A stretch of 64,000 bases of DNA from Siphonodentalium dalli. Taxonomy: Eukaryota > Mollusca > Scaphopoda > Gadilida > Siphonodentaliidae. The notes beneath the pieces were generated by a model. The model saw only the letters and a program-made list of their open reading frames with translations. It did not search any database and had not been told where the DNA came from. The position numbers were made by a program, and so were the translations under genes. This document shows positions 5,062-64,000 of the stretch, piece after piece (positions within the stretch are counted from its first letter, which is position 1; each line of letters starts with the position of its first letter). Location of the stretch: assembly GCA_032622095.1 (NCBI GenBank), contig CP136068.1, forward strand, positions 8,223,314-8,287,313, given 5' to 3'.

Positions 5062-8000
5062 CTGGAGAGTAAAACAGATAGCTTGAAATACATATATTTC
5101 ATGACCATGACACTTGTCTATCTTACCATAGCTTCTTGACTTTATGTTTATATGTGTAACATCATCTTTTCAACATTCATATTGCGTGTAACATGTTAGA
5201 GTAGAGGTGACAATGAAAGTAGATGTTAGACGAAAATTATAACTAGTATTATGTTACTAAATATATCAGTGTATATTCAAATGTTTACTGGTAGGACAAA
5301 GCGATTGTTTTTTTATCGTTCGTACGTGACCATCTGTTAGCGAGCCTCGTGTATATAAAGTATGTAATTTATAGATCATGGCCTCGGTTTATCAAACCTA
5401 GGTCGTCGGTGCTCAACATCACCAGTGCACCACTGTGTATGCACTGTTACACTGTAATCCAAATTATACATTTTCGCGAGTTTTTTAGAGTTAAAACGCA
5501 TTTTTTAACCATATGGGTGATAACTCGATTAACTGTTCCATTCCCCTCATAATATATGGTCCCAAAAAACGTAAAAATAATGGAAATCCCCATTGTGCGA
5601 GTCATAACAACGATAAAACCTCAAATTGTGATATCTCGATCGGTTCTCTCTCAATCGAGTCGGTTCTCTCCCGATGTATACATACGAGAAATACGATGAC
5701 TATTATTGCGACGGATACGTGAATATAACCAAGTAGGCATAACGAAATAAGCATTAAGTTGATTTTACACCACTTATTGTCAATTTCGGTGAGTTACAAT
5801 GCCTTCGTATATATAATTATTTTGGAATGAATGAGTCAGTGTGAACTGTGAAGATTGATCGCCCAACAGACCAATCATAATGGACGACACTTTACTTGGG
5901 AACAGGCCCCTTCTGTGTATCCTATTGTAGTCTATTATATCACGATCCTTGTAGGACCCTACATGTGTATACATTATGCATACATATATGCATATATAAT
6001 GAACTAATATAAATAAATACATGTCTTAATTTCATTTTGCACTTGATGGCATGCAATATGAACGATACAGTGAGTACGTGTCGATTTAGCAAGTTCCAGT
6101 ACCGGTATATTGCCTGTACTTAAGTTCGTTTTGGGCTTACTTATGCAATTGGGTTATTTATACATCATCTATAAATAGGCAGCTAAATATATACGAGCGC
6201 ATTCATATTTCATTTGATGGCATTTTGGATGGCGCTGGAATCGAACAAATATCCCATCTGGGACATTCAACCACATACCTGCCTCATTTAAAGTCAATTG
6301 TCGGTTTGCGTTCCCAAATACACGTCATAATATTCGCTTTTTATGTTTTCCCGATATAGACATAGGTCGATAAACACGTGAATTACCTTTCCACGAGCAG
6401 TGTAATTGACCCTACCGCAATTAGCTGTGTGAGCCAATGAGATAATTGCATTATAAAGCCTGGAGCAATGGTCGCTTCTGCGAACAGGCGGTTAGACAAA
6501 AAGACTCATTTTACCGGCTTACTCTATGTCGCTTTGATTTTGTTTTGTATAAAAGAGTATTGGTTTCATGTAAGTTGACACAATATACTAATATAACAGT
6601 AACAGAATGCGAAAGCGTCTCCCTACGGGCTTTTTGGATTAGTAAATTATGAAGGTTGGAAATGTCACGCTGAGCTAGAGAAATGACAACTGGAAATATG
6701 ATGAGGGGATTAGGAAATGCTAGATAAGCTTATTAGTTAAAACTATCAAATCAAACTATGTACACATTTGAGATAATGGACCATATAGTGTTGTAATCTC
6801 CAAGGGATGATTTGTTGGGGAAAGAGGGACACTACAATGGCCAATGTATATGATAGCACCTGTTAAATTCACCTGTTGTCGATTAATACAGGCTGATTAG
6901 GGCGCCTCTTCCTGATAGCTTTCGGATTTGTGATGGTTAGATTTGGTACATTATACATCATTTATTGGTATATTTTGTGAATAATTGGTATTCATGGCAT
7001 TTATACGTGGACTTACATACACAAACATTATGGCAGACCAATGGAATATTAGGGAACTGTGATATGAAAAATAATTTCTCAATATAATGAAACATGTTTG
7101 TTCTATACGCGTAATGTGCCAATTATGAAGATTATTAATTGTTATTATAACATTTATTTTTAATTTAAATGTCTTTATTAATTCCTTAGATATATAAGTC
7201 ACGTTTTACATAGCCCATCACACACCCACGTGGCAGGGATAAGGGCGTTCTTTTTGTCTGAAATAAAAGGATTATTATATATTGTACAGATGTTGTTCCA
7301 TAACCCCCTTCTTGGTAATAGGGTGGTCTGCTCTACGTCATTTGAAAATTGAAAAATATTACAAGTTACAACACACAGAGGCTCCATACACACGGCAAAC
7401 AGTCCCTATATTATTCTAGGACATATATAAACACTATATAGCAATATATGCCGTATGTATTGGAACCTATGGCTATGGAATTGCCCCCACTTTCTGTATA
7501 GGCGTGGTATTTTCAAATTCTAAATTAGTGACTAAGGAGTTAATAAAGAAAAAAAATCAAATATCAGATGCTTTGGTGTATCGGAAAGGATGGTGTGCTG
7601 CTACGTACGTATAGATAGATAGTTTAGTCAAAGAGGTTGAAGGCGGTCGATGACAAAACCATCTCCATATATGATCAATACGTTCACGTCCATAAGTCCA
7701 GTATAGGATCCAATATTTGCCCATCTATTAGAATATGTATCATTATCAAGAAAAAAACAATCAGTTATCCAGAAAAAAACAATCAATTATGACATGGAAC
7801 ACTTTTTGATACCAGTATGGTGCATCTTCGAAAAGGTACAAAAAACTGACTACAACGGATGAAAACATACAAGTCCTCTAATTTTTATCGAAATAGGGAA
7901 ATTGTATGGTACACCATCGATAAATTGATAGATCGTGTGTCTATTGTGAAGAGATATATTATAATAACATTAAATATTTATTATGTGTTACATATCCAGC

Positions 8001-9924: not shown

Positions 9925-10767
9925 CTTGAAACAGATGGTTCGAAATAAATATATTATGATACTGAAGTCACTGCTATCATTATGGAAATACGGTCGTTCA
10001 GCATTCATATGTTATGCAATACTTTGGAGAATAGGCGAACAATATATATATAGCCATATATGTTTGCTACTGAATGTAACCGTATATATATCTACTGACC
10101 TCGTGTATACTAACGCGACAACCCGATTGGTATTATCACGTATACTAGAAACGTTAGTGAGATACATGGACATAAACATGCAAATCAACAAATTCAGTCC
10201 TAACTTTAGACGACATGAGACCAAAGATAGAATATTTATTTGGAATGTTAAACTTTTGAAATTATGAGTTTTCATTGGTTGGTGGACGGTCGTCATTACT
10301 ACATTCGGCAATGTTGTATCAGTCTATCCATATGCCAGTGGTTGGGATATATTATACTGTAACGACATAGAACTGTTGTTTATATTGATATAGTGAGTTG
10401 GTTGTATAAGTTGTATCCATTTACCAACGAGAATAGCAGAATGCCTATGTCATACCTGCGGTGGTCCGAGACACTGTTGTTGTTGTAGTTGATATCTCTG
10501 TTGTTTGCCCCCGTTGTTCGGTATCCTCTGAATCAGAATATATTTAACAGTTATTAACGAGTATTTCCCTTAGGAAATGTTCAGACAATAAGTTCAGTAA
10601 AGCACTATGGCCGGATTCGTCATCTTCGGTTTAAACCTCCGAGTTTAAATCTGGTTTAAACCTACATTGACGGTCCAGACAAACCGGGTCTAAGTTAGCG
10701 ATATTGTCGTTCAGTTGCCCGCTAATTGATAACTATGCGGCGATATGAGCATGCAGACAAACTACCC

Positions 10768-12626
10768 AGAGTCTTTATTTCGCTAAAAATCGGATTAGAG
10801 AATCCGAAGCCGATTAAGGGGGCGGGGCTAGTTCCCGATTCTAGGTCAGATTTTGAAATCCACGTGGTCTCCGAAACTATGTTTAATATTCTCCCAGCGT
10901 CAAACATGGCTCATGTATTTGACACAAGTATCATTTGTATCTTATATTTATAAAGTTCATGTTTGTTGTGAAAGTCATGCTTTTCTTCTATGTGTATATA
11001 CACGGCACATAATTTTCTGCCGATCCGACTTAATCGCATCTTTTTTTGTTCAAGTTAAAGTGTGTTTATTGATGAGGGCAAGCATATCTAAACGTGACAG
11101 CTCTATGCCTCCTGAATCAAATTCCGAATATGTTGTAAAGAACACACGACACTTGTCAGTTGAACAGGGACGTGACGACAGGGGTTGGTTGGGTGTCTCG
11201 ACCCCACCCCGAACTTTATTACAATTCGCTTAGCTGTGGAGTCATTCATACGTGAGGAAAATTTTTGACTAACTGTTCCAAATAATGATACGTACAAGCC
11301 AGCAAACGCAACAAACAAACCCGATTTGAAATAAATACATATACAAACTTATGACTAACTCGGGAGAGGGGGTGTCCAGTGATATGTATATATGTTTAGC
11401 TTGTTTTGGTAGTCATGTTGCTTTGCCATTACTAATTATTTATTTTTTCAGTGTAATAACATATGGGATAGGGGGTGCCCTTAAGTGAGTCAGCACTTGT
11501 CCTCCAATTCCTTTGTATGTATAAACAAATGTATGTGTTATATATCATGTGTTATCTAAATTTGACATATATTTGAAATAAATATATCTAAACTAAACTT
11601 TGGTACATTCCAGCAGTCGGAAATTTTATGCATGACACAACATTAGTTGGACATTAATTTGACACCATATATAGGTTGGCATTGTTCTCATTGTTTGATT
11701 TTTTTCAACCAGTAAAAGTTGGTAATTTTCCAATCTTGGTGTTTGTCAGGTTGGATATTTCCAAGGGGAGCAAATGGAATTCTGGGAACCTGTGAGATTG
11801 ATGTTTGGTTGAATGGGGGGGGGGGTGCAGTTGGTCTGAAATTTGAGACAACATCTAACCACGTCTCTAGAACACATGTCTGTTGTCTATACATAGACTA
11901 TTGTGCAAAACGACTGCATTTAACGAAACGAAACATTTTAAATATGAAATTGCTATAAGACTAGATGATAGTACATACGTGTATCTGATAATCCATCGAT
12001 ATCATATAATCCTTCTATTTCTTGAATAAGAAGAAACATTATAATAACGAACACAGCAGAAGACATATCCATGCAGGTTCATATGAATTCGGTCAATGGT
12101 GACGTATCCGCCGAATTCGAAATCGACATGCGTTCGGGCGGTATTTTATGGATGGAATTATGAAATGAACATATGAAAGTGACAATCAACAATGATTTAA
12201 TTTTGCTTCGTCATCAACCGAAGTGCTCCCCCAGCGTTACTATCAATAGCGTTATTATTTGGCTTATTTCAGTAATATTCTCCCAGTTTACATTCAATAA
12301 AACAAATTTGTCTCCGCAAATAAAATTCTTTGGTACAGATCGTTTATATTCTGCAATAATTTGTACACAAGAGACGGATTATTATGTTTTATTGTGTTTT
12401 TAAACTCCGAGGTGGCGAAATCTCGGTTTGTTTACATTACGAACATTTGAGTCCGTAATCGGAATACGAATCCAGAATCGAATTACCACGAAATTGAGAT
12501 TACGGTCTGTTCGTTTACCGATTCTGCCCATTTCTGGTCTGTTCTTTTGCCGAACCAAGTCGTACGGGGACCAATCTGTAATCTGAATCCAGATTCTGAA
12601 TCAGGATTTTAGCGAAATAACGCCTC
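10768..12626. mobile_element. TIR transposon, unit 1 only, carrying a host-like signal-peptide exon
   Basis: The left end reads AGAGTCTTTATTTCGCTAAA. The right end, reverse-complemented, reads AGAGGCGTTATTTCGCTAAA. Arm similarity continues for about 35-40 bp with small gaps. Units 2 and 3 have the uninterrupted site ACTACCCTGTGCC, so the insertion is directly visible. I see no target duplication, which is unusual. It might mean a different end position, target loss, or a rearranged copy. The element has no transposase frame. It contains a sequence at 11979-12270 that is homologous to a first exon and its 5' flank found at 20610 and 51448, which suggests gene-fragment capture of the Pack-TYPE kind. 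It also holds a CAGGGACGTGACG string near 11165 that resembles ends of the hAT-like repeats elsewhere in the window. Confidence 0.65.
11979..12072 (-). CDS. Signal-peptide first exon (secreted protein, partial)
   Basis: The minus-strand ATG at 12072 opens a 31-codon frame starting MDMSSAVFVIIMFLLIQEIE. This has a short N-region, an eleven-residue hydrophobic core and then polar residues, as in a signal peptide with cleavage probably near residue 19-21. The frame runs into GLYDIDGLSDT and meets a strong donor, GTATGT, after the first base of the next codon (phase 1). The lectin-like exon at 4861-5061 and its dead copy at 9767-9924 begin in phase 1, so the pieces are compatible. Joining them is inference. 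The 200 bp upstream is homologous to the flanks of decayed copies at 20610-20700 and 51448-51540, including ACGCTGGGGGAGC and GTCGATTTC, so promoter or 5' UTR sequence was copied as well. The exon sits inside a TIR element. Confidence 0.5.
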
Positions 12627-15100
12627 TGTGCCATGCGGAACAAAAGATATGGCGATTGTATGCTTATTGACACGCCATTAATTATCGCGAACCCGTGGAC
12701 GCTCATGTGAATGATTCATTGACAAACAAGTATCGCTCATGGACTAACTATTCCGATCTCTTTCTGGGTTTAAATCAACCGGACAAACGGCATGTCTCTC
12801 AACGCGAGTTTCGCGCGCTGCATGTTCATCACTTTGTTTGTGATATATTTTCTGCAAGGTGCTTTACCGTGAAAAGACAACAGTAGGTGTATTTACATGT
12901 ATAGCTGTATATCTAAAATAGTAGTACCTGTATATCCGTCTGTCTGTTCTCCCGGACCCGTGGGCCGGTTTCAACCACATTTGTGGTAAATCGGGGTAAA
13001 CAGGCGGATGTTATAACAGCGTTAGGTTTTCAAAATTTTGATTTTAAAGCAAGAACAATTTTATTTAAAAAAATTAAAAAATACCGTTGTGAAATTGAGC
13101 AAGGAGTTTAATCTAAGAAAAAACATAATATTATACGGCGTTATTTTCTAAAAAATAATATTTAAAAACAATTTGTTTATTTAAAAATAAATACTAATAA
13201 TTGTCGTTAAATTGAGCAAATTGAGTTCAATCTAAAATATTATTTCAAATATTTAATTTAAAAAACAAAATTAATATAATTTTGTGTTTTAAATATCACA
13301 ATTATTTAACGATTAAAGGAACCGCCGCTAAATATAGGCTGTCTAAGATGAAAATGTCACAAATGAGTCACATGAGCTCCTACGCTGAATAAAGACTCCC
13401 AAATGGAGCCTGTTTCAGCTAATATTACAGGTACAATTTTAGATGATTCACAGCATGTCCGCGATCGGTGTTATTAATAATTTTGCAAATGCAGACGAGA
13501 ACGGTTTTCGCCATCTTGCGATTAATGCATAGTTCATTTGTAAAGATAGACACCCCAATGGAGACATTCTAATCGATCCTGGACTAAGAAGTCAGTAAAC
13601 TAAAGACAATTTGATTATGGTTGCGCGCCACAAGCGGCATCTGAACTTTGGAAGTGTGCAACCAGAGGGTCTCCTGTTCGGGAATGGGTAAAAATGTTCC
13701 AACCTGTAGCTCAAACATTCTAACTTTTGGATATTTCCAGCCAGAACTCCTACATGGTAGAACATTTTCCAAATGATGACCATTTCAGTCACAAATTGGC
13801 CGGATGTGGTCTAAACAGATAACTCTACAGATAATGGTTGGAAAAACTATAAGAACAATTTCCATCTATTTGGTAAGATATTTTCAACTGATATTCTGTC
13901 GGACAAACCGAAGTTGAAATGTCTCACCCCAAACGAGAGCGAACCATCCCCTATTAACAGGAGAAATGTAACTTACTCATGGTAAAAGTTAAAATCGTGA
14001 ATGGTTCGTCAATTCTGAGTAAATTGTGGGAGGTCATATGGGGTTTGGAGTCACCCCTCTCATCTTTGGCATATGGGATCTTTATGTTTTCCAGATTCCT
14101 GTAATATTGTTGAATTGAAAGTTCAAACCGGAACCTTACACTCGCATTTCTAACAGTCATTAATATTCTAAATGAAAAAAATCACGTGTAAAATGTTGTT
14201 CATTTTTACTTCAGGCCCAGCCTTTCGCATCACAATTAGATCATGTGAACTTATTTCTTTGTTAATAACTACGTTGTAATAATCTAATTCACAGTAAGGC
14301 TGGTACCAGCTCGAAGTGGCATGATTTAATCGACATATGTGAGCAGATTGAAATGGGTTCCCGGGGAAATATCCATGATTGTAAGTGACACAAAGCAATT
14401 TGTTTCGCCTAATCGTGCAACCTCGAGCTGGGATCTTCACCTACTTCATAGCGGGAACTGCGCTTGTGTTAGACCAATGTATACAGCATCGCATGTATAA
14501 GATAATGCACCAGAGGAAGTGGGGCTTTCTTGCTTATTTTATTTCAACTTTCTGACTGATTCTGAAACTGCCTATACAGCAGGGTGCTCTGCCTATCAGT
14601 AGCTTATGCCAGCTTCCGGTGGGCAAGACATGGTACCTCTTATCGTGGACTCAAGTGTCATTGTGCATCCCCCTTTACTCATACAAAGCTACGCTATATG
14701 GAACCAGTGTTCTGTGATAGAGGAGTCTTTCGGTTTGTGACTATTTGACGTTTTCCTGACATACCAATAACTGGGCTAATTATTTACAAACTTATTATTC
14801 ATTTAGTTATCCGTTCATTTAGTTGACCATCTCATAGTCCTTAGTTTGTTTTATTCACCATATTCGCTCTGTAAATGTCCACCAGAACGTATTATTTGCG
14901 ACAAAACATTACATTTTAAATGATTATTTTGATATAAGCCGTACCAAACCATAATTTCACTGTTCATACTAAACAGCACGGGATATAATTTTAGTTATTA
15001 ATAGCACTGCCGCTACAGGCATTAAGGAACAATTAAGTTATATCAAGGCATTGTATAGCAATTATTGTCCCCCGACGTTCTGAAAGAAAAGGTTCGTCCG
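12627..15100. other. Unit 1 non-coding block shared with units 2 and 3
   Basis: No gene is supported. It includes a very AT-rich part (about 13020-13320) with two related halves around AAATTGAGCAA and TCAATCTAA. It also has a repeat segment at 13540-14165 with AACATTTTCCAAATGATGAC, whose reverse complement resembles strings near 15545 and 15925. A 90-codon minus-strand frame at 14168-14440 recurs at 35456 and 63629, but it shows no domain and is preserved only because the copies are recent. Near 14474-14511 a degenerate form of the hairpin motif described at 61004 is visible. Confidence 0.5.
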
Positions 15101-18873: not shown

Positions 18874-19002
18874 TTTCGGTAATGTTTGGTAAAAGCAACT
18901 AAAAGAAAAACATAGCATATCACAAGAAGCAATCTGGAAATCAAATTATAGAACATAACGCATTTAACATCGATCGCGAGAAATGATGGCGAACTAAAAA
19001 AA

Positions 19003-19146
19003 ACGGAACACCCATCATTAGTAAAAACGGAATACCCATCATTAGTAAAAACGGAATACCCATCATTAGTAAAAACAGAATACCCATCATTAGTAAAAAC
19101 AGAATACCCATCATTAGTAAAAACGGAATACCCATCATTAGTAAAA
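19003..19146 (+). repeat. 24-bp minisatellite, 6 copies (unit 1)
   Basis: There are six near-perfect 24-bp copies, each ending in CATCATTAGTAAAA. A single A/G variant position follows the opening AC, and the first copy has GAACAC in place of GAATAC. The period is a multiple of three, so frames stay open on both strands without coding meaning. The array at 49833-50312 in unit 2 is the allele-like partner with 20 copies. Confidence 0.95.
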
Positions 19147-19191
19147 ACGATGTCCTATAACATGTATACATATACTCTATTTTATTTTATT

Positions 19192-24866: not shown

Positions 24867-27800
24867 TATACACGTGATTGATACCAAAAGCCCAAATATT
24901 ATATGGCTCAAGCTTTCTAAGCAGTGGTTCAGAATACCGAATGATATTTATTTATGTACAGCTTATTGTGCGCCAGACAATTCTTCAGCCCAAAAGGCTG
25001 GTGGGGAAGACACTCTTAAACTTATAACGGGAGACATTTCCAAATATGCCGCTAAAGGGAACATTATTATACAGGGCGATTTAAACGCGAGGACAGGATC
25101 AATCAAGGACTCGATATCGCACGACAATACAACCATGCAAATGCCCCCCCCCCTCGATTATATCCCGCATACTCAATTGCCATGTAGGCGCAGTAGAGAT
25201 AATAAGATTAACACGCGAGGCAGAAACCTCATAAAACTTTGCATGGACTCCAGCATGAGGATAGTGAATGGCCGCACTGCGGGAGATTTTCTTGGTAACT
25301 TCACCTCCTATCAACCCGCAGGGTGTAGTGTAGTAGATTATGTAATAGGTAGCCAAGCTCTCTTTGATCGAATACCGTTCTTTCATGTGAACCCATTGAC
25401 TATTTTATCTGACCATTGTCAATGCTGGTTTATCTTAAACATTGGCTCTTCAATTACTGACTCTGAACAGCATGAGACATTTCCTTAGCGTGCGAAACCA
25501 CTGCGATTTAAATGGGATGAACTGGCCTCATTTCCGTTTAGGGAAGAGTTTAACACACCAGATGTACAGGTCAATTTGCGAAAAATATTTGAAGATGAAG
25601 AAAGCTCTTCAAAAGTACTTGTCTCCAAACTCAATGCTATAATGCATATTGTTGCTTCTAGGTCCTTCAAACGACAATCTACACAACACAGACGAAAACA
25701 CAATATACATGCCAGTAAACCCTGGTACGATCATACATGTGCTGAACTGAAACGTCAGTTGACTCGCTCTGTTAAATCCCTAAATGACAACCAACTAGAC
25801 CTCATCATTCGTGGGCGTTATTTTAATTTGAAGAAGCAGTATCGGAAGTTTTTAAATTCCAAACGAAAATCATTTAGACTCGATAAATATCACACTCTTG
25901 TGGGGATGGAAAATAAATCACCTTCACGATATTGGGCTATTATTGATGAATTAAAACATGAATCTAATGGCAGGCCCAATTTTGCAGGTACTAACTTTCA
26001 CCAAAAAGAACTATATGATCATTTTAAAAATCTAGGCAGTTTGACTGCAGACACTGACCAGTTATTCAAACATACCGTTCTCGCAGAACTTCCAATATTA
26101 GAAGAACGGGCGCGAGACATAACTGACCTTGACTATGAAATTTCCGAATTAGAAATCAGGCACGCGATCACGAGACTAGCTAATGGCAAGGCTGAAGGCA
26201 TTGATTGTATTAAACCAGATATGATAAAAAGCGTTAAAGATCAGCTCATACCTATTTAAAAAAAAATGTTTAAACGACTACTTACAAATGGAGATTTCCC
26301 TGAAGAATGGCTTGAGGGTTTCATAATTCCTATACCAAAATGTAAACACCCAACAACAACAAACGACCTTCGCGGGATCACCATTACCAGTGTATTGGGT
26401 AAAATATATGCTGATATACTGCTTAATCGGCTAACTTCGTTTTTTCAACATAAGGGTATACCTTCGAAATTTCAAGCAGGTTTCCGCAAAGATCATACGA
26501 CATTCGATAACACGCTTGTTTTACGAACACTCATAAATAAATCTATACTAAAACGGAAAAAGGTGTATACGTGTTTCGTAGACTTCAATAAGGCTTTCGA
26601 TATAGTATGGCGTGAAGGTTTGCTGTATAAACTAATCAAATTGGGTGTGGGTGGTACAGTATATACCACAGTTAAAAAGATAATCACTGAATATACAACT
26701 AGTGTCCAATGTGGGATAAATAGTTTAACAGACAAATTCCAGGGAGCAGTGGGATTGATGCAGGGAAATAATTTAAGCCCTTTATTTTTCAATATATTCA
26801 TAGATGAAATTGCTTCGATCCTACTCGAAAGCAAATCAGACGCCCTAATGTTTTCGGCGAAGTAGTCCCGTGCTTGATGTATGCCGACGATCTTGTTTTG
26901 ATTTCAGAAAGCCCCGGTGGCCTCCAGACAATGCTAAATTCATTACATAAATACTGTCGGGAATGGCAAATTACCCTGAACAGTTCTAAAACAAAAACTC
27001 TTGTTTTTCATGCTGGTGGTCAACATATCTCAAAACCAACATTTACCTTCGGCAACCAAAGTCTTGAATCGACACAGTCATATACATATCTTGGTATTAA
27101 ATTCTTTGCTTCCGGCAAAATGACACATGCTATATTGGATCTAAAAAACAGAGCATCAAGAGCACTTTTCAAATTGCGCTCAAGTCTTGATCACGATTTA
27201 CCTGTCGAAGTATCAACAAAACTATTTGACACATGTGTTAAACCGATCCTCACCTACGCATCCGAGACATGGGGTGACGAGACAGTTAATAGACAGTCAA
27301 ATGAAATAGGGAAATTTCACCTAAACTATGCAAAAAATCTCCTCGGTATCAGTAAAACTGCAACAAATGTAGCCGCACTTGCGGAGCTGGGGAGATTTCC
27401 AATAAGACTAGATATCCTGAGAGATATGGTAAAATTTTGGCTCCGTCTAGAAAATATGGACACGAATAGACTGCCGGCCAAATGTCTGGCAGAAATGAAA
27501 ACATGGACTAATTGCGCATGGCTTAACTGTGTCCGGAAAATCATGGTTACATATGGCTTTCAAAACGTATATGAAAACCCGCGTAATATAGACCGACAAA
27601 CGTTTTCCAACAATTTTCTCCAAACCATGAAAGAAAAATATGCCAGTTCATGGAAAGTCAGTGATATTTATGGAAAACCCACTGAGAATATTAAGGTAAA
27701 ATTCATATCCAAATTAAAACCGGCTGACACATACGAGCTATCAAATTACCTCAGAAATTTACCGCGAGGTGGCCGTAAAGTGATTTCTAAATTAGTGACC

Positions 27801-28103
27801 AGCTGCCATAATCTAGAAATTGAACGCGGCCGATACACTAAGCCTATTACCCCCAGACTGGACCGTGTATGTAAACAGTGTCATACAGGCGTCGTTGAGG
27901 ACGAGGAACATTTTATAATACACTGTCCTCGATATAATATCCAACGGATATTGCTATATGAAACAATGGAACAAAATACAACAAATTTCATGGAACTTGA
28001 CGCTAACGCCAAACTACGTATACTTTTTGCAGTTGATGATCGACTTTGTAATAGGCCCCTCAGTAATTTTATTCAGACAGCTTCTTATTTAAGACGCGAA
28101 TAA
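24862..28103 (+). pseudogene. LINE ORF2: endonuclease (partial), reverse transcriptase, zinc knuckle; three lesions
   Basis: The order of domains is as follows. The C-terminal part of an APE-type endonuclease has IIIQGDLNAR near 25062-25092, VVDYVIGS near 25330-25355 and SDH near 25411. A linker follows, then the reverse transcriptase with ITITSVLGKIYADIL, CFVDFNKAFD near 26573-26602, GLMQGNNLSPLFF, and YADD at 26880-26891. The thumb comes next, and then a C-terminal knuckle CKQC, HFIIHC near 27871-27933. Lesions are an in-frame TAG at 25486-25488, an in-frame TAA at 26257-26259, and a missing base near 26847 that shifts the frame just before YADD. The N-terminal part of the endonuclease and ORF1 are absent. 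All RT motifs are otherwise readable, so the copy, or its source, is fairly young. Confidence 0.85.
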
Positions 28104-28294
28104 TGTGACAATAACGGGCCAATGCTAGACAAGAACTTTATATTTCAGAATTTATGCTTGTATATTGCCCATTGATTACCATACCATGTTATATGTTTGT
28201 TTTCTTTATTTTCTGTATGTGTACATGTACATGTATATTGCGATACCCAAATGTATTTGTTTGTGGTCGCGCAATAAAGATCTATCTATCTATC
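24867..28294 (+). mobile_element. 5'-truncated LINE with (ATCT)n tail, unit 1 only
   Basis: The insertion is seen by comparison. Unit 1 has GGCATCAGGGA, then the element, then TATTAGTGAGAATG. Unit 2 has GGCATCAGGGAAATATTAGTGA near 55950. The element is about 3.43 kb and starts within the endonuclease domain. Its short 3' UTR ends in GCAATAAAGATCTATCTATC with four ATCT-type repeats in place of poly(A). No target duplication is visible, and two A bases of the empty site are absent. The clade is not assigned: a LINE with an APE-type endonuclease and a microsatellite tail. Confidence 0.85.
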
Positions 28295-32431: not shown

Positions 32432-33279
32432 GCGAACAGTATATATAGCCATATATTTTTGCTACTGACTAACCGTATATATCTACTGACCTCGTGTAGA
32501 CTAATGTGACAACCCGATTGGTATTATCATATGTACGAGAAACGTTAGTTATATAAATGGACATAAACATGCACAATAACAAATTCAGTCCTAACTTCAG
32601 ACGACAGGAGATCAAAGATATAATTTGTTAACGTGTTCATATTTATTTGGAATGTTAAACTTTTGAAATAATGAGTTTCCATTGGTTGGTGGACTGTCGT
32701 CATTACTACATTCGGCAATATTGTATCCGTCTATCCATATGCCAGTGTTTGGGATATATTATATTGTAACAAGTAGAACTGTTGTTTATATTGATATAGC
32801 GAGTTGGTTGTATAAGTTGTATCAATTCACCAACGAGAATATCATAATACCTATGTCATACCTGCGGTGGTCCGGGGTACTATTGTTGTTGTAGTTGTTG
32901 TCTCTGTTATTTGCCCCCGTTGCTCGGTATCCTCTGAATCTGATTATATTAAACAGTTATTAACGAGTATTTCCCTTAGGAAATGTTCAGACAATAAGTT
33001 CAGTAAAGGACTGTGGCCGGATTCGTCATCTTCGGTTTAAACCTCCGAGTTTAAATCTAGTTTAAACCTACATTGACAGTCCAGCCAAACCGGGCCTAAG
33101 TTCGCGATATTGTCGTTCAGTTGCCCGCTAACCCCTTACCCAACAAACCGGCCAAAACCGGCCAAATAAAGCTTCAACAGCCTAAAATATCTTCGGTCTG
33201 TCTCAATAGAACCATACAAATATGGATATCATTGGAACCGGCTCCTTGATCACATTGTGATAGTTAGTTATACCCTGTG

Positions 33280-33346
33280 CCAATGCATTCTCTTATATAT
33301 GCTAGTCGACCATAGGTCGCCTCACATATATAAGAGAATGCATTGG
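33280..33346. repeat. 67-bp palindrome, left, unit 2 (slightly mutated)
   Basis: The arms begin CCAATGCATTCTCTTATATA and end TATATAAGAGAATGCATTGG, with inner CGACC/GGTCG around ATA. Compared with unit 3, two positions have changed near the inner arm ends (CTAG for CGAG and CTCACA for CTCGCA), so the hairpin is weakened. Confidence 0.85.
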
Positions 33347-33427
33347 CCTAAAAAAAATCTTTTTTTAACACTTTTTACTATTTTTTCTTACATTCTTTAA
33401 CAATTTTATAATTTTTAATGTGTTAAG

Positions 33428-33494
33428 CCAATGCATTCTCCTATATATGCGAGGCGACCTATGGTCGACTCGCATATATAAGAGAATGCATTGG
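33428..33494. repeat. 67-bp palindrome, right, unit 2
   Basis: This is the reverse complement of the left palindrome, with one change (CTCC for CTCT). The inner part reads GGCGACCTATGGTCGAC. Confidence 0.85.
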
Positions 33495-34440
33495 CACAGG
33501 GCCATTCTGTTGGGTAAAGGGCTAATTGATAACTATGCGGCGATATGAGCATGCAGACAAACTACCCTGTGCCATGCGGAACAAAAGATATGGAGATTTT
33601 ATGCTTATTGACACGCCATCAATTATCGCGAACTCGCGGACGCTCATGTGACTTATTCATTGAAAAACAAGTATCGCTCATGGACTAACTATTCCGATCT
33701 CTTTCTGGGTTTAAATCAACCGGACAAACGGCATGTCTCTCAACGCGAGTTTCACGCGCTGCATGTTCATCACTTTGTTTATGATATATTTTCTGTGGAT
33801 GCTTTACCGTGAAAAGACAACATTAGGTGTATTTACATGTATATCTGTATATCTAAAATAGTAGTACCTGTATATCCGTCTGTCTGTTCTCCCGGACCCG
33901 TGGGCCGGTTTCAACTACATTTTTGGTGATTCGGGGTAAACAGGCGGATGTTATAACAGCGTTAGGTTTTCTAAATTTTGATTTTAAAGCAAGAACAATT
34001 TTATTTTAAAAAATGAAAAAATACCGTTGTGAAATTGAGCAAGGAGTTTAATCTAAGAAAAAACATAATGTTATACGGCGTTATTTTCTAAAAAATTATA
34101 TCTAAAAACAAATTATTTATTTAAAAATAAATGCTAATAATTGTCGTTAAATTGAGCAAATTGAGTTCAATCTAAAATATAATTTCAAATATTTAATTTA
34201 AAAAACAAAATTAATGTAATTTTGTGTTTTAAATATCGAAATTCTTTAACGATTAAAGGAACCGCCGATGAATATAGGCTGTCTAAGATGAAAATGTCAC
34301 AAAGGGGTCACATGAGGTCCGACACTGAATAAAGACTCCCAAATTAGAGCCTGTTTCAGCTAATATTACAAATACAATTTTAGTTGATTCACAGCATGTC
34401 CGCGATCGGTGTTATTAATAATTTAGCAAATGCAGACGAG

Positions 34441-34787: not shown

Positions 34788-36753
34788 CGCCATCTTGCGA
34801 TTAATGCATAGTTCATTTGTAAAGATAGACACCCCAAATTGAGACATTCTAATCGATCCTGGACTAAGAAGTCAGTAAACTAAAGACAATTGGATTATGG
34901 TTGCGCACCTCAAGCGGCATCTGAACTTTAGAAGTGTGCAACCAGAGGGTCCCCTGTTCGGGAATGGGTAAAACTGTTCCAACCAGTAGCTCAAACATTC
35001 TAACTTTTGGATATTTCCAGCCAGAACTCCTACATGGTTGAACATTTTCCAAATGATGACCATTTCAGTCACAAATTGGCCGGATGTGGTCTAAACAACT
35101 CTACAGAAACTCTACAGATAAGGGTTGGAAAAACTATAAGAACAATTTCCATCTATTTGGTAAGATATTTTCAACTGATATTCTGTCGGACAAACCGAAG
35201 TTGAAATATCTCACCCCAAACGAGAGCGAACCCTCCCCTAATAACATGAGAAATGTAACTTACTCATGGTAAAAGTTAAAATCGTGAATGGTTCGTCAAT
35301 TCTGAGTAAATTGTGGGAGGTCATATGGGGTTTGGGATCACCCCTCTCATCGTTGGCATATGGGATCTTTAATGTGTTCCAGATTCCGGTAATATTGTTG
35401 AATTGAAAGTTCAAACCGGAACCTTACACTCGCATTTCTAACAGTCATTAATATTCTAAATGAAAAAAATCACTTGTAAAATGTTGTTCATTTTTACTAC
35501 AGGCCCAGCCTTTCGCATCACAATTAGATCATGTGAACTTATTTCTTTGTTAATAACTACGTTGTAATAATCTAGTTCACAGTAAGGCTGGTACCAGCTC
35601 GAAGTGGCATGATTTAAGCGACATATGTGAGCAGATTGAAATGAGTTCCCGGGGAAATATCCATGATTGTAAGTGACGCAAAGCAATTTGTTTCGCCTAA
35701 TCGTGCAACCTCGAGCTGGGATCTTCACCTAATTCATAGCGGGAGCTGCGCTTGTGTTATGCCAATGCATACAGCATCGCATGTATAAGAGAATGCACCG
35801 GAGGAAGTGGGGCTTTCTTGCTTATTTTATTTCAACTTTCTGACTGATTCTGAAACTGCCTATACAGCAGGGTGCTCTGCCTATCATTAGCTTATGTCAG
35901 CTTCCGGTGGGTAATACTTGGTACCTCTTATCGTGGACTCAAGTGGCATTGTGCATCCCCTGTTACTCATACAAAGCTACGATATATGGATCCAGTGTTC
36001 TGCGATAGAGGAGTCTTTCGGTTTTTGACTATTTGACGTTTTCCTGACATACCAATATCTGGGCTAATTATTTACAAACTTATTATTCATTTAGTTCTCC
36101 GTTCATTTAGTTGACCATCTCTTAGTCCTTAGTTTGTTTTATTCACCATATTCGCTCTGTAAATGTCCTCCAGAACGTATTATTTGCGACAAAACATTAC
36201 ATTTTAAATGATTATTTTGATATAAGCCGTACCAAACCATAATTTCACTGTTCCTACTAAACAGCACGGGATATAATTTTAGTTATTAATAGCACTGCCA
36301 CTACAGGCATTAAGGAACAATTAAGTTATATCAAGGCATTGTATAGCAATTATTGTCCCCCGACGTTCTGAAGGAAAAGGTTCGTCCGTCACACTCCTGA
36401 GTACCTTCATGGTGCAATCATCTCCTTCATATTTCATCCCAGAGATTTGAAACTTCAGAATATTTTTGCCCACATATTGAAGATGTGCAGCATGTACATA
36501 ACATATTTTTTGACTGAGTTATTAACCTTTTTCAACATTTTTTTATAAGTTTCAGTATGAGGGTACCTTCTTGGTGTAATCAACTCCTCCTACAGTTTTG
36601 ATCGTATATATTTGAAACTTCAGAGTATTGTTACCCACATATTGGGGATGTGCAGCAGATATATAGATGACGGAATTATTATTTGTTTACGGAGTTATTA
36701 ACCCTTTTTTATTTCTTTAACACAGCGGCATCGACTTGCCACGTTGTCGGGGG
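34788..36753. other. Unit 2 non-coding block (matches 13510-16693 minus insertions)
   Basis: No gene is supported. It contains the same repeat segments as unit 1 and two copies of the roughly 170-bp tandem repeat. A degenerate hairpin motif lies at 35762-35799. Confidence 0.45.
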
Positions 36754-49793: not shown

Positions 49794-49832
49794 TTAACAT
49801 CGATCGCGAGAAATGATGGCGAACTAAAAAAA

Positions 49833-50312
49833 ACGGAATACCCATCATTAGTAAAAACGGAATACCCATCATTAGTAAAAACAGAATACCCATCATTAGT
49901 AAAAACAGAATACCCATCATTAGTAAAAACGGAATACCCATCATTAGTAAAAACGGAATACCCATCATTAGTAAAAACAGAATACCCATCATTAGTAAAA
50001 ACAGAATACCCATCATTAGTAAAAACAGAATACCCATCATTAGTAAAAACAGAATACCCATCATTAGTAAAAACAGAATACCCATCATTAGTAAAAACAG
50101 AATACCCATCATTAGTAAAAACGGAATACCCATCATTAGTAAAAACAGAATACCCATCATTAGTAAAAACAGAATACCCATCATTAGTAAAAACGGAATA
50201 CCCATCATTAGTAAAAACGGAATACCCATCATTAGTAAAAACGGAATACCCATCATTAGTAAAAACGGAATACCCATCATTAGTAAAAACAGAATACCCA
50301 TCATTAGTAAAA
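49833..50312 (+). repeat. 24-bp minisatellite, 20 copies (unit 2)
   Basis: There are twenty uninterrupted 24-bp copies (480 bp), identical except for an A/G switch at one position. Because 24 is divisible by three and the unit lacks stops in some frames, long frames read through on both strands (KTEYPSLV repeats on plus, LLMMGI repeats on minus). They are not taken as genes. Flanks match the 6-copy array at 19003-19146. Confidence 0.95.
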
Positions 50313-50351
50313 ACGATGTCCTATAACATGTATACATATACTCTATTTTAT

Positions 50352-60152: not shown

Positions 60153-61003
60153 GGCGAACAGTATATATAGCCATATATTTTTGCTACTGACTAACCGTAT
60201 ATATCTACTGACCTCGTGTAGACTAATGTGACAACCCGATTGGTATTATCATATGTACGAGAAACGTTAGTTATATAAATGGACATAAACATGCACAATA
60301 ACAAATTCAGTCCTAACTTCAGACGACAGGAGATCAAAGATATAATTTGTTAACGTGTTCATATTTATTTGGAATGTTAAACTTTTGAAATAATGAGTTT
60401 CCATTGGTTGGTGGACTGTCGTCATTACTACATTCGGCAATATTGTATCCGTCTATCCATATGCCAGTGTTTGGGATATATTATATTGTAACAAGTAGAA
60501 CTGTTGTTTATATTGATATAGCGAGTTGGTTGTATAAGTTGTATCAATTCACCAACGAGAATATCATAATACCTATGTCATACCTGCGGTGGTCCGGGGT
60601 ACTATTGTTGTTGTAGTTGTTGTCTCTGTTATTTGCCCCCGTTGCTCGGTATCCTCTGAATCTGATTATATTAAACAGTTATTAACGAGTATTTCCCTTA
60701 GGAAATGTTCAGACAATAAGTTCAGTAAAGGACTGTGGCCGGATTCGTCATCTTCGGTTTAAACCTCCGAGTTTAAATCTGGTTTAAACCTACATTGACA
60801 GTCCAGCCAAACCGGGTCTAAGTTAGCGATATTGTCGTTCAGTTGCCCGCTAACCCCTTACCCAACAAACCGGCCAAAACCGGTCAAATAAAACTTCAAC
60901 AGCCTAAAATATCTTCGGTCTGTCTCAATAGAACCATACAAATATGGATATCATTGGAACCGGCTCCTTGACCACATTGTGATAGTTACAGTTATGCCCT
61001 GTG

Positions 61004-61070
61004 CCAATGCATTCTCTTATATATGCGAGTCGACCATAGGTCGCCTCGCATATATAAGAGAATGCATTGG
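61004..61070. repeat. 67-bp palindrome, left, unit 3 (intact)
   Basis: The arms of 26 bp are perfect: CCAATGCATTCTCTTATATA then TGCGAG, answered by CTCGCA then TATATAAGAGAATGCATTGG. One T/C mismatch follows, then CGACC-ATA-GGTCG. Confidence 0.9.
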
Positions 61071-61137
61071 CCTAAAAAAACTTTTTACTATTTTTTCTTA
61101 CATTCTTTAACAATTTTATAATTTTTAATGTGTTAAG

Positions 61138-61204
61138 CCAATGCATTCTCTTATATATGCGAGGCGACCTATGGTCGACTCGCATATATAAGAGAATGCA
61201 TTGG
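61138..61204. repeat. 67-bp palindrome, right, unit 3 (intact)
   Basis: Exact reverse complement of 61004-61070; the inner part reads GCGACCTATGGTCGA. Confidence 0.9.
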
Positions 61205-61277
61205 CACAGGGCAATTCTGTTGGGTAAAGGGCTAATTGATAACTATGCGGCGATATGAGCATGCAGACAAACTACCC

Positions 61278-62600
61278 TGTGCCATGCTGAACAAAAGATA
61301 TGGAGATTTTATGCTTATTGACACGCCATCAATTATCGCGAACTCGCGGACGCTCATGTGACTTATTCATTGAAAAACAAGTATCGCTCATGGACTAACT
61401 ATTCCGATCTCTTTCTGGGTTTAAATCAACCGGACAAACGGCATGTCTCTCAACGCGAGTTTCACGCGCTGCATGTTCATCACTTTGTTTATGATATATT
61501 TTCTGCAAGATGCTTTACCGTGAAAAGACAACATTAGGAGTATTTACATGTATATCTGTATATCTAAAATAGTAGTACCTGTATATCCGTCTGTCTGTTC
61601 TCCCGGACCCGTGGGCCGGTTTCAACCACATTTGTGGTGATTCGGGGTAAACAGGCGGATGTTATAACAGCGTTAGGTTTTCAAAATTTTGATTTTAAAG
61701 CAAGAACAATTTTATTTAAAAAAATGAAAAAATACCGTTTTGAAATTGAGCAAGGGGTTTAATCTAAGAAAAAACATAATGTTATACGGCGTTATTTTCT
61801 AAAAAATTATATCTAAAAACAAATTATTTATTTAAAAATAAATGCTAATAATTGTCGTTAAATTGAGCAAATTGAGTTCAATCTAAAATATAATTTCAAA
61901 TATTTAATTTAAAAAACAAAATTAATGTAATTTTGTGTTTTAAATATCAAAATTCTTTAACGATTAAAGGAACCGCCGCTGAATATAGGCTGTCTAATAT
62001 GAAAATGTCACAAAGGGGTCACATGAGCTCCGACGCTGAATAAAGACTCCCAAATTAGAGCCTGTTTCAGCTAATATTACAAATACAATTTTAGTTGATT
62101 CACAGCATGTCCGCGATCGGTGTTATTAATAATTTAGCAAATGCAGACGAGAACAGTGAGTAGTTAGAAGCGAATGTGAATATTTTAGCTGACGAGGAAA
62201 TTTAATCATGTCAAAAATAATCACCAGGGACGTCTCACCCCAAACTCTCTTCTAAATTTTCAACAGTTGAAAAGTTCATGCCTCAATGTGACACCATGTG
62301 ACAACAAAATTAGGTTGTAATTTTCCAACCATGCAGTAATTACATGTATACTATAGGAAGACACAGTTTTCCAAAATTAGGGAGCGTGTCTATATACAAA
62401 ATTATAACAGTTGAACAGATTTAAGAACCAGTTCAATCAAGTGTGGTGTACAAATGGAATTTCGCCATCTTGCGATTAATGCATAGTTCATTTGTAAAGA
62501 TAGACACCCCAATGGAGACATTCTAATCGATCCTGGACTAAAAAGTCAGTGAACTAAAGACAATTTGATTATGGTTGCGCACCACAAGCGGCATCTGAAC
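61278..62600. other. Unit 3 non-coding block
   Basis: Matches 33568-34940. No gene is supported. It includes the AT-rich part and the segment shared with unit 2 only (62154-62458). Confidence 0.45.
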
Positions 62601-63632
62601 TTTGGAAGTGTGCAACCAGAGGGTCTCCTGTTCGGGAATGGGTAAAACTGTTCCAACCAGTAGCTCAAACATTCTAACGTTTGGATATTTCCAGCCAGAA
62701 CTCCTACTTGGTTGAACATTTTCCAAATGATGACCATTTCAGTCACAAATTGGCCGGATGTGGTCTAAACAACTCTACAGAAACTCTACATATAATGGTT
62801 GGAAAAACTATAAGAACAATTTCCATCTATTTGGTAAGATATTTTCAACTGATATTCTGTCGGACAAACCGAAGTTGAAATGTCTCACCCAAACGAGAGC
62901 GAACCCTCCCCTATTAACAGGAGAAATGTAACTTACTCATGGTAAAAGTTAAAATCGTGAATGGTTCGTCAATTCTGAGTAAATTGTGGGAGGTCATATG
63001 GGGTTTGGGGTTACCCCCTCTCATCTTTGGCATATGGGATCTTTAATGTTTTCCAGAATCCGGTAATATTGCTGAATTGAAAGTTCAAACCGGAACCGTA
63101 CACTCGCATTTCTAACTTTGGAAGTATGCAACTAGAGGGTCTCCTGTTCGGGAATGGGTAAAACTGTTCCAACCAGTAGCTCAAACATTCTAACTTTTGG
63201 ATATTTCCAGCCAGAACTCCTACTTGGTTGAACATTTTCCAAATGATGACCATTTCAGTCACAAATTGGCCGGATGTGGTCTAAACAACTCTACAGAAAC
63301 TCTACATATAATGGTTGGAAAAACTATAAGAACAATTTCCATCTATTTGGTAAGATATTTTCAACTGATATTCTGTCGGACAAACCGAAGTTGAAATGTC
63401 TCACCCCAAACGAGAGCGAACCCTCCCCTATTAACAGGAGAAATGTAACTTACTCATGGTAAAAATTAAAATCGTGAATGGTTCGTCAATTCTGAGTAAA
63501 TTGTGGGAGGTCATATGGGGTTTGGGGTCACCCCCTCTCATCTTTGGCATATGGGATCTTTAATGTTTTCCAGAATCCGGTAATATTGCTGAATTGAAAG
63601 TTCAAACCGGAACCTTACACTCGCATTTCTAA
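62601..63632 (+). repeat. 516-bp tandem duplication, unit 3 only
   Basis: The segment starting TTTGGAAGTGTGCAACCAGA (62601) is repeated in full from 63117 (TTTGGAAGTATGCAACTAGA), with a 516-bp offset. The copies differ at only a handful of positions, so the event is recent. Units 1 and 2 have one copy. Confidence 0.9.
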
Positions 63633-64000
63633 CAGTCATTAATATTATAAATGAAAAAAATCACGTGTAAAATGTTGTTCATTTTTACTACAGGCCCAGC
63701 CTTTCGCATCACAATTAGATCATGTGAACTTATTTCTTTGTTAATAACTACGTTGTAATAATCTAGTTCACAGTAAGGCTGGTACCAGCTCGAAGTGGCA
63801 TGATTTAAGCGACATATGTGAGCAGATTGAAATGAGTTCCCGGGGAAATATACATGATTGTAAGTGACGCAAAGCAATTTGTTTCGCCTAATCGTGCAAC
63901 CTCGAGCTGGGATCTTCACCTACTTCATAGCGGGAACTGCGCTTGTGTTAGACCAATGTATACAGAATCGCATGTATAAGAGAATGCACCGGAGGAAGTG
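63633..64000. other. Unit 3 non-coding tail to window end
   Basis: Matches 14168-14520 and 35456-35810. It includes the degenerate hairpin motif near 63953-63991. No gene. Confidence 0.45.

Follow-up and report, generated by a model that had tools for sequence, protein, structure and literature searches.

A probable piggyBac-type MITE with two inverted palindromes in a tandem segmental duplication of Siphonodentalium dalli

The analysed window, a stretch of 64,000 nucleotides of Siphonodentalium dalli DNA (contig CP136068.1), contains a short mobile DNA element without genes, a MITE, of 378 bp at 60854-61231. The element is well bounded and is probably a non-autonomous member of the piggyBac type, with an internal structure, two identical palindromes in inverted orientation, that is unusually regular. 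The account that best covers the data as a whole, and which we hold to be quite probable, is that of a gene-less piggyBac-type MITE whose palindromes serve as internal transposase-binding repeats.

The boundaries, the terminal inverted repeats (TIRs) and the target site of the element could be fixed because the window holds both a second copy and an empty site. The window contains a three-unit tandem segmental duplication, in which the element is found in units 2 and 3 and is absent from unit 1. The unit 2 copy (33132-33521, 390 bp) was recognised by alignment of the window and by its TIRs. The TIR is 14 bp long, CCCYTTACCCAACA, with one mismatch between the ends, and is written CCC(C/T)TTACCCAACA in both copies. 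In unit 3 the left TIR, CCCCTTACCCAACA, occupies 60854-60867 on the plus strand, and the right TIR, CCCTTTACCCAACA, is read on the minus strand at 61218-61231. Allowing up to two mismatches, CCCYTTACCCAACA has five matches in the window (0.68 expected). The four exact ones are the ends of the two element copies and the fifth, at 6813 and with two mismatches, lies outside both.

The motif CTAA stands on either side of the element, at 60850-60853 and at 61232-61235, and is single in the paralogous empty site of unit 1. This site, with GCTAA once at 10721-10725, reads GCCCG-CTAA-TTGATAAC (about 10725). It was recognised from flank matches and the printed sequences: unit 1 positions 10673-10725 and 10721-10767 each match one flank of the element, with an overlap of five bases. 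A three-way alignment was left out, as it forces unit 1 against the element. The interval 60854-61231 holds no open reading frame (ORF) of at least 100 aa in the ORF list. Terminal repeats, target duplication and paralogous empty site together give good support to the first-pass annotation, which had called a MITE at 60854-61230; given the symmetric ends, only its right boundary has to be moved, to 61231.

The three tandem units span 10030-64000, with an offset of about 27.7 kb between units 2 and 3. The same annotation had placed the palindromes in a tandem array. The units are indeed in tandem, but the array is in fact this three-unit segmental duplication, with the element in two of the units. 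In the two stretches that adjoin the element, unit 1 has diverged by 4.7-8.6% from the other units and units 2 and 3 by 0.4-1.7% from each other (3/705 positions in the left flank, 15/880 in the right). As their flanks are shared, the copies in units 2 and 3 would go back to one and the same insertion event. In unit 1 the element was either never present or was lost precisely, and the empty site fits both. Because unit 1 is without it, the element was probably not the cause of the duplication that separated unit 1, with loss by precise excision being possible.

Several other repeats were seen in the window. A 1.86-kb insert (10768-12625), found in unit 1 only and 42 bp from the empty site, has AGAG..TTATTTCGCTAAAA-type inverted ends and no evident target duplication. 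Between units 1 and 2 lies a LINE-type retroelement (24871-28294), whose matches to endonuclease and to reverse transcriptase fall in different ORFs. It ends in ATCT repeats and is absent at the equivalent position, 55961, between units 2 and 3. A 24-bp tandem repeat is present in about 20 copies in unit 2 (49829-50314) and in 6 copies in unit 1 (18999-19149). A 516-bp sequence is duplicated in tandem at 62598-63633 with 98.7% identity, so that unit 3 has it twice, and units 1 and 2 have it once each. The octamer TACATGTA occurs 26 times in 1-64000, compared to 2.5 expected from dinucleotides, and a tRNA scan of the window returned nothing.

TIRs of piggyBac elements are about 12-19 bp long and start with CC[C/T]T or CCC. 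The 14-bp TIRs found here agree with this description, the right end CCCTTTACCCAACA fitting CC[C/T]T and the left end CCCCTTACCCAACA fitting CCC, although its fourth base is C. The target CTAA, seen in one insertion event and with a 5-bp reading GCTAA also possible, is one step from TTAA; that it is not TTAA itself counts against this placement. We regard piggyBac membership as probable, because a CCCTT start is combined with a 4-bp TTAA-like target and CTAA has been published as a minor target. Indeed, CCCTT is described as the most conserved TIR start of surveyed piggyBac elements, with CTAA among the few variant targets (PMC10813416). For Pokey, CTAA is given as the target of 0.85% of insertions, and alternate target sites in other studies are described as keeping the middle T and A (PMC3849761); CTAA fits this pattern because both are kept. 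CTAA is also named among non-canonical piggyBac sites in a study where TTAA makes up 93% (PMC3983033). In PMC3078864, consulted for variant piggyBac targets, the one match to CTAA lies inside a primer. Furthermore, piggyBac-related MITEs are described with 13-14 bp TIRs starting with CCCTTT or CCCC (PMC2872659), and in beetles CCCTTT makes up three of six listed TIR-start motifs, CCCT being the most prevalent (PMC12732532).

If the target duplication were five bases long, GCTAA, this would speak against piggyBac, and the element would be a MITE of another superfamily. We consider this unlikely. The reading builds on the G that precedes CTAA on both sides, the right one of which is given to the TIR when four bases are counted, so that five bases are repeated. 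It loses the symmetry of the ends, however, as the left end then starts with CCCCTT and the right end with CCTTT, whereas the 4-bp reading yields a 14-bp TIR with one mismatch and a CCCTT start that fits piggyBac. No transposase was found among the 10 scanned of the 28 window ORFs of at least 100 aa; five of the ten gave matches, all of LINE type (endonuclease, reverse-transcriptase or zf-RVT domains). A partner that supplies the transposase could sit anywhere in the genome. The matches listed in a literature search with the TIR core look unrelated by title.

Inside the element lie two near-perfect palindromes of 69 bp. Palindrome 1 (61003-61071, plus strand) begins 149 bp from the left tip and palindrome 2 (61137-61205, minus strand) lies 26 bp from the right tip; they thus face the two tips identically, at unequal distances. 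Palindrome 1 and the reverse complement of palindrome 2 show no difference in 69 positions. Each palindrome is made of 33-nt arms that are 97% complementary, with 3 nt between them, and the spacer between the two is 65 bp in unit 3. Two 67-bp palindromes, 67 bp apart and in opposite orientation, had been described here before. Their existence and orientation are real, while length and spacing are corrected to 69 and 65 bp; the earlier spacing arises from counting the palindromes as 67 bp. Both are enclosed by an outer inverted repeat with arms of 88 nt and 95% complementarity, at 60988-61075 (plus) and 61133-61220 (minus). This repeat extends 15 nt past the palindromes towards the tips. On the right side the extension takes in the 12 nt between palindrome 2 and the TIR, plus 3 nt belonging to the TIR itself, and its left counterpart has diverged. 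We also considered the palindromes alone as a nested second element and rejected this, as no matching duplication was seen on its two sides. Among the matches listed in a literature search for such structures in MITEs, none was recognised as the same by title or the start of the abstract. Exact searches with 20 bases of the palindrome arm gave no match in viral and prokaryotic contig collections, which has little bearing on a eukaryotic family.

The predicted folding of this structure is strong. A comparison of folding energy with shuffled sequence, proposed in the first-pass annotation, bears out the expectation for 60854-61230 (z -20.6 as DNA and -26.1 as RNA, with 0/100 shuffles as good in each case). 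Taken singly, the four hairpins in the two copies reach z values of -12.2 to -14.3, and none of 200 shuffles was as good for any of them. Eight hairpins in the window reached the score threshold of a hairpin scan, the six best all lying in the element and its second copy.

Selection on folding, which had been suggested from the strictness of the structure, is not supported by comparison of the copies. Units 2 and 3 differ in the element by 8 substitutions and 16 gapped columns, and the spacer between the palindromes is 79 bp in the unit 2 copy compared to 65 bp in unit 3. The palindromes are not depleted of substitutions (3/138 positions compared to 5/240 elsewhere, both small numbers). Five of the eight substitutions fall on paired positions, three in the palindromes and two more in the outer repeat, and all five leave a pair that is formed in unit 3 but disrupted in unit 2. 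On these grounds we rejected conserved or compensatory pairing, and the comparison of the two copies, on small numbers, gives no sign of folding constraint since insertion. The same data bear on the idea that the palindromes have been retained to form a hairpin RNA, as a precursor of siRNA or miRNA-like products. The unit 3 hairpins do fold as RNA at -54.3 kcal/mol each (-44.5 and -50.1 kcal/mol in unit 2). Yet in mobile elements inverted repeats form strong folds even with no RNA function, all three palindrome substitutions between the copies break pairs in palindromes that are not depleted of substitutions, and Rfam at gathering scores matches nothing in the window. We consider an RNA precursor very improbable.

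How the nested form arose is suggested by a shared irregularity. Each palindrome has one and the same internal mismatch, and because the inverted copy repeats it exactly, the data suggest that the palindrome already existed when its inverted copy was made. Identical inverted copies with the same mismatch are also what is expected if strand switching during replication or repair copied an existing palindrome, and the nested palindromes might be a mere by-product of such an event, without a role in transposition. The absence of any sign of constraint afterwards fits as well. This explanation is compatible with much of the one we favour, as it denies only the binding role; we regard it as a serious possibility, but doubt it on balance. 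Against it, the 15-nt extension of the outer repeat towards the tip, with its diverged left counterpart, suggests an old subterminal module, and a relic of the palindrome exists elsewhere in the window.

This relic is a decayed lone palindrome, of which every one of the three units has a single example. Its best-kept arm lies at 63968-63988 on the plus strand, with counterparts at 14489-14509 and 35777-35797. When up to three mismatches were allowed, the 21-base arm had no match in 100 shuffles of the window. Since it is present once in each of the three units, the decayed palindrome would be older than the duplications. The palindrome is consequently not always paired, which had been posed as a question beforehand, and single occurrence, named at the same time as speaking against a folding role, is seen in part, at least in this relic. 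We further asked whether the relic is a whole second MITE and rejected this: its best alignments to the element scored above 100 base shuffles in all three units, but only over 24 nt, and the flanks of the unit 2 relic without its 44-nt core stayed below the 95% point of 200 shuffles in four of four comparisons.

By analogy with known piggyBac ends, transposase binding would be the likeliest role of the palindromes. Palindromic sequences of 19 bp, identical to one another, are described in these ends at asymmetric distances from the tips, and a cryo-EM structure has the palindromic sequence bound by two cysteine-rich domains (PMC11707139). On our preferred account, a tip-proximal segment that already contained a palindrome would have been copied in inverted orientation before insertion, which would explain the nested form. 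The element may then have been mobilised in trans by a piggyBac-like transposase, with the two identical palindromes, unequally distant from their tips, acting as putative internal binding repeats. One insertion into a CTAA site, followed by duplication of the unit that held it, would account for its presence in units 2 and 3. Strong folding would then follow from the way the element is put together, without having been selected for as such. A variant of this account, in which the binding repeats of a piggyBac-type family have grown into long nested hairpins and govern assembly of the two ends via extruded cruciforms instead of linear sites, strikes us as very improbable. We conclude that the locus offers a well-bounded gene-less transposon insertion with an empty paralogous site, and that the geometry of identical palindromes at unequal tip distances could serve in tests of how diverse ends are recognised by piggyBac-like transposases. 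Aside from the bounded insertion and the palindrome geometry, this is ordinary repeat biology.

Long inverted repeats that fold back are also typical of Foldback elements, and Tm1 is reportedly, by the title of its paper, a Mutator/Foldback family. Foldback-type target duplications are longer than 4 bp, unlike that of the element described here. The coral CMITE resembles it in having the 13-14 bp TIRs with CCCTTT or CCCC starts mentioned above and no ORF, and an allele without the element is described, comparable to our empty site; CMITE differs in its length of about 100 bp and its TTAA target, and the terms "hairpin" and "secondary structure" are absent from the text of that paper (PMC2872659). 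The mPok element of Daphnia Pokey is likewise a non-autonomous piggyBac element, with TIRs of 12 or 16 bp, and the CTAA target found here is also among the rare targets of Pokey. In contrast, mPok is about 750 bp long and has ends matching an autonomous element already known, a counterpart that is missing here (PMC3849761). The internal repeats of piggyBac are 19 bp, whereas the nested palindromes here are much longer at 69 bp, a point against the account we favour, and the two are likened by description and not by sequence; in both cases, identical palindromic sequences lie at unequal distances from the tips (PMC11707139).
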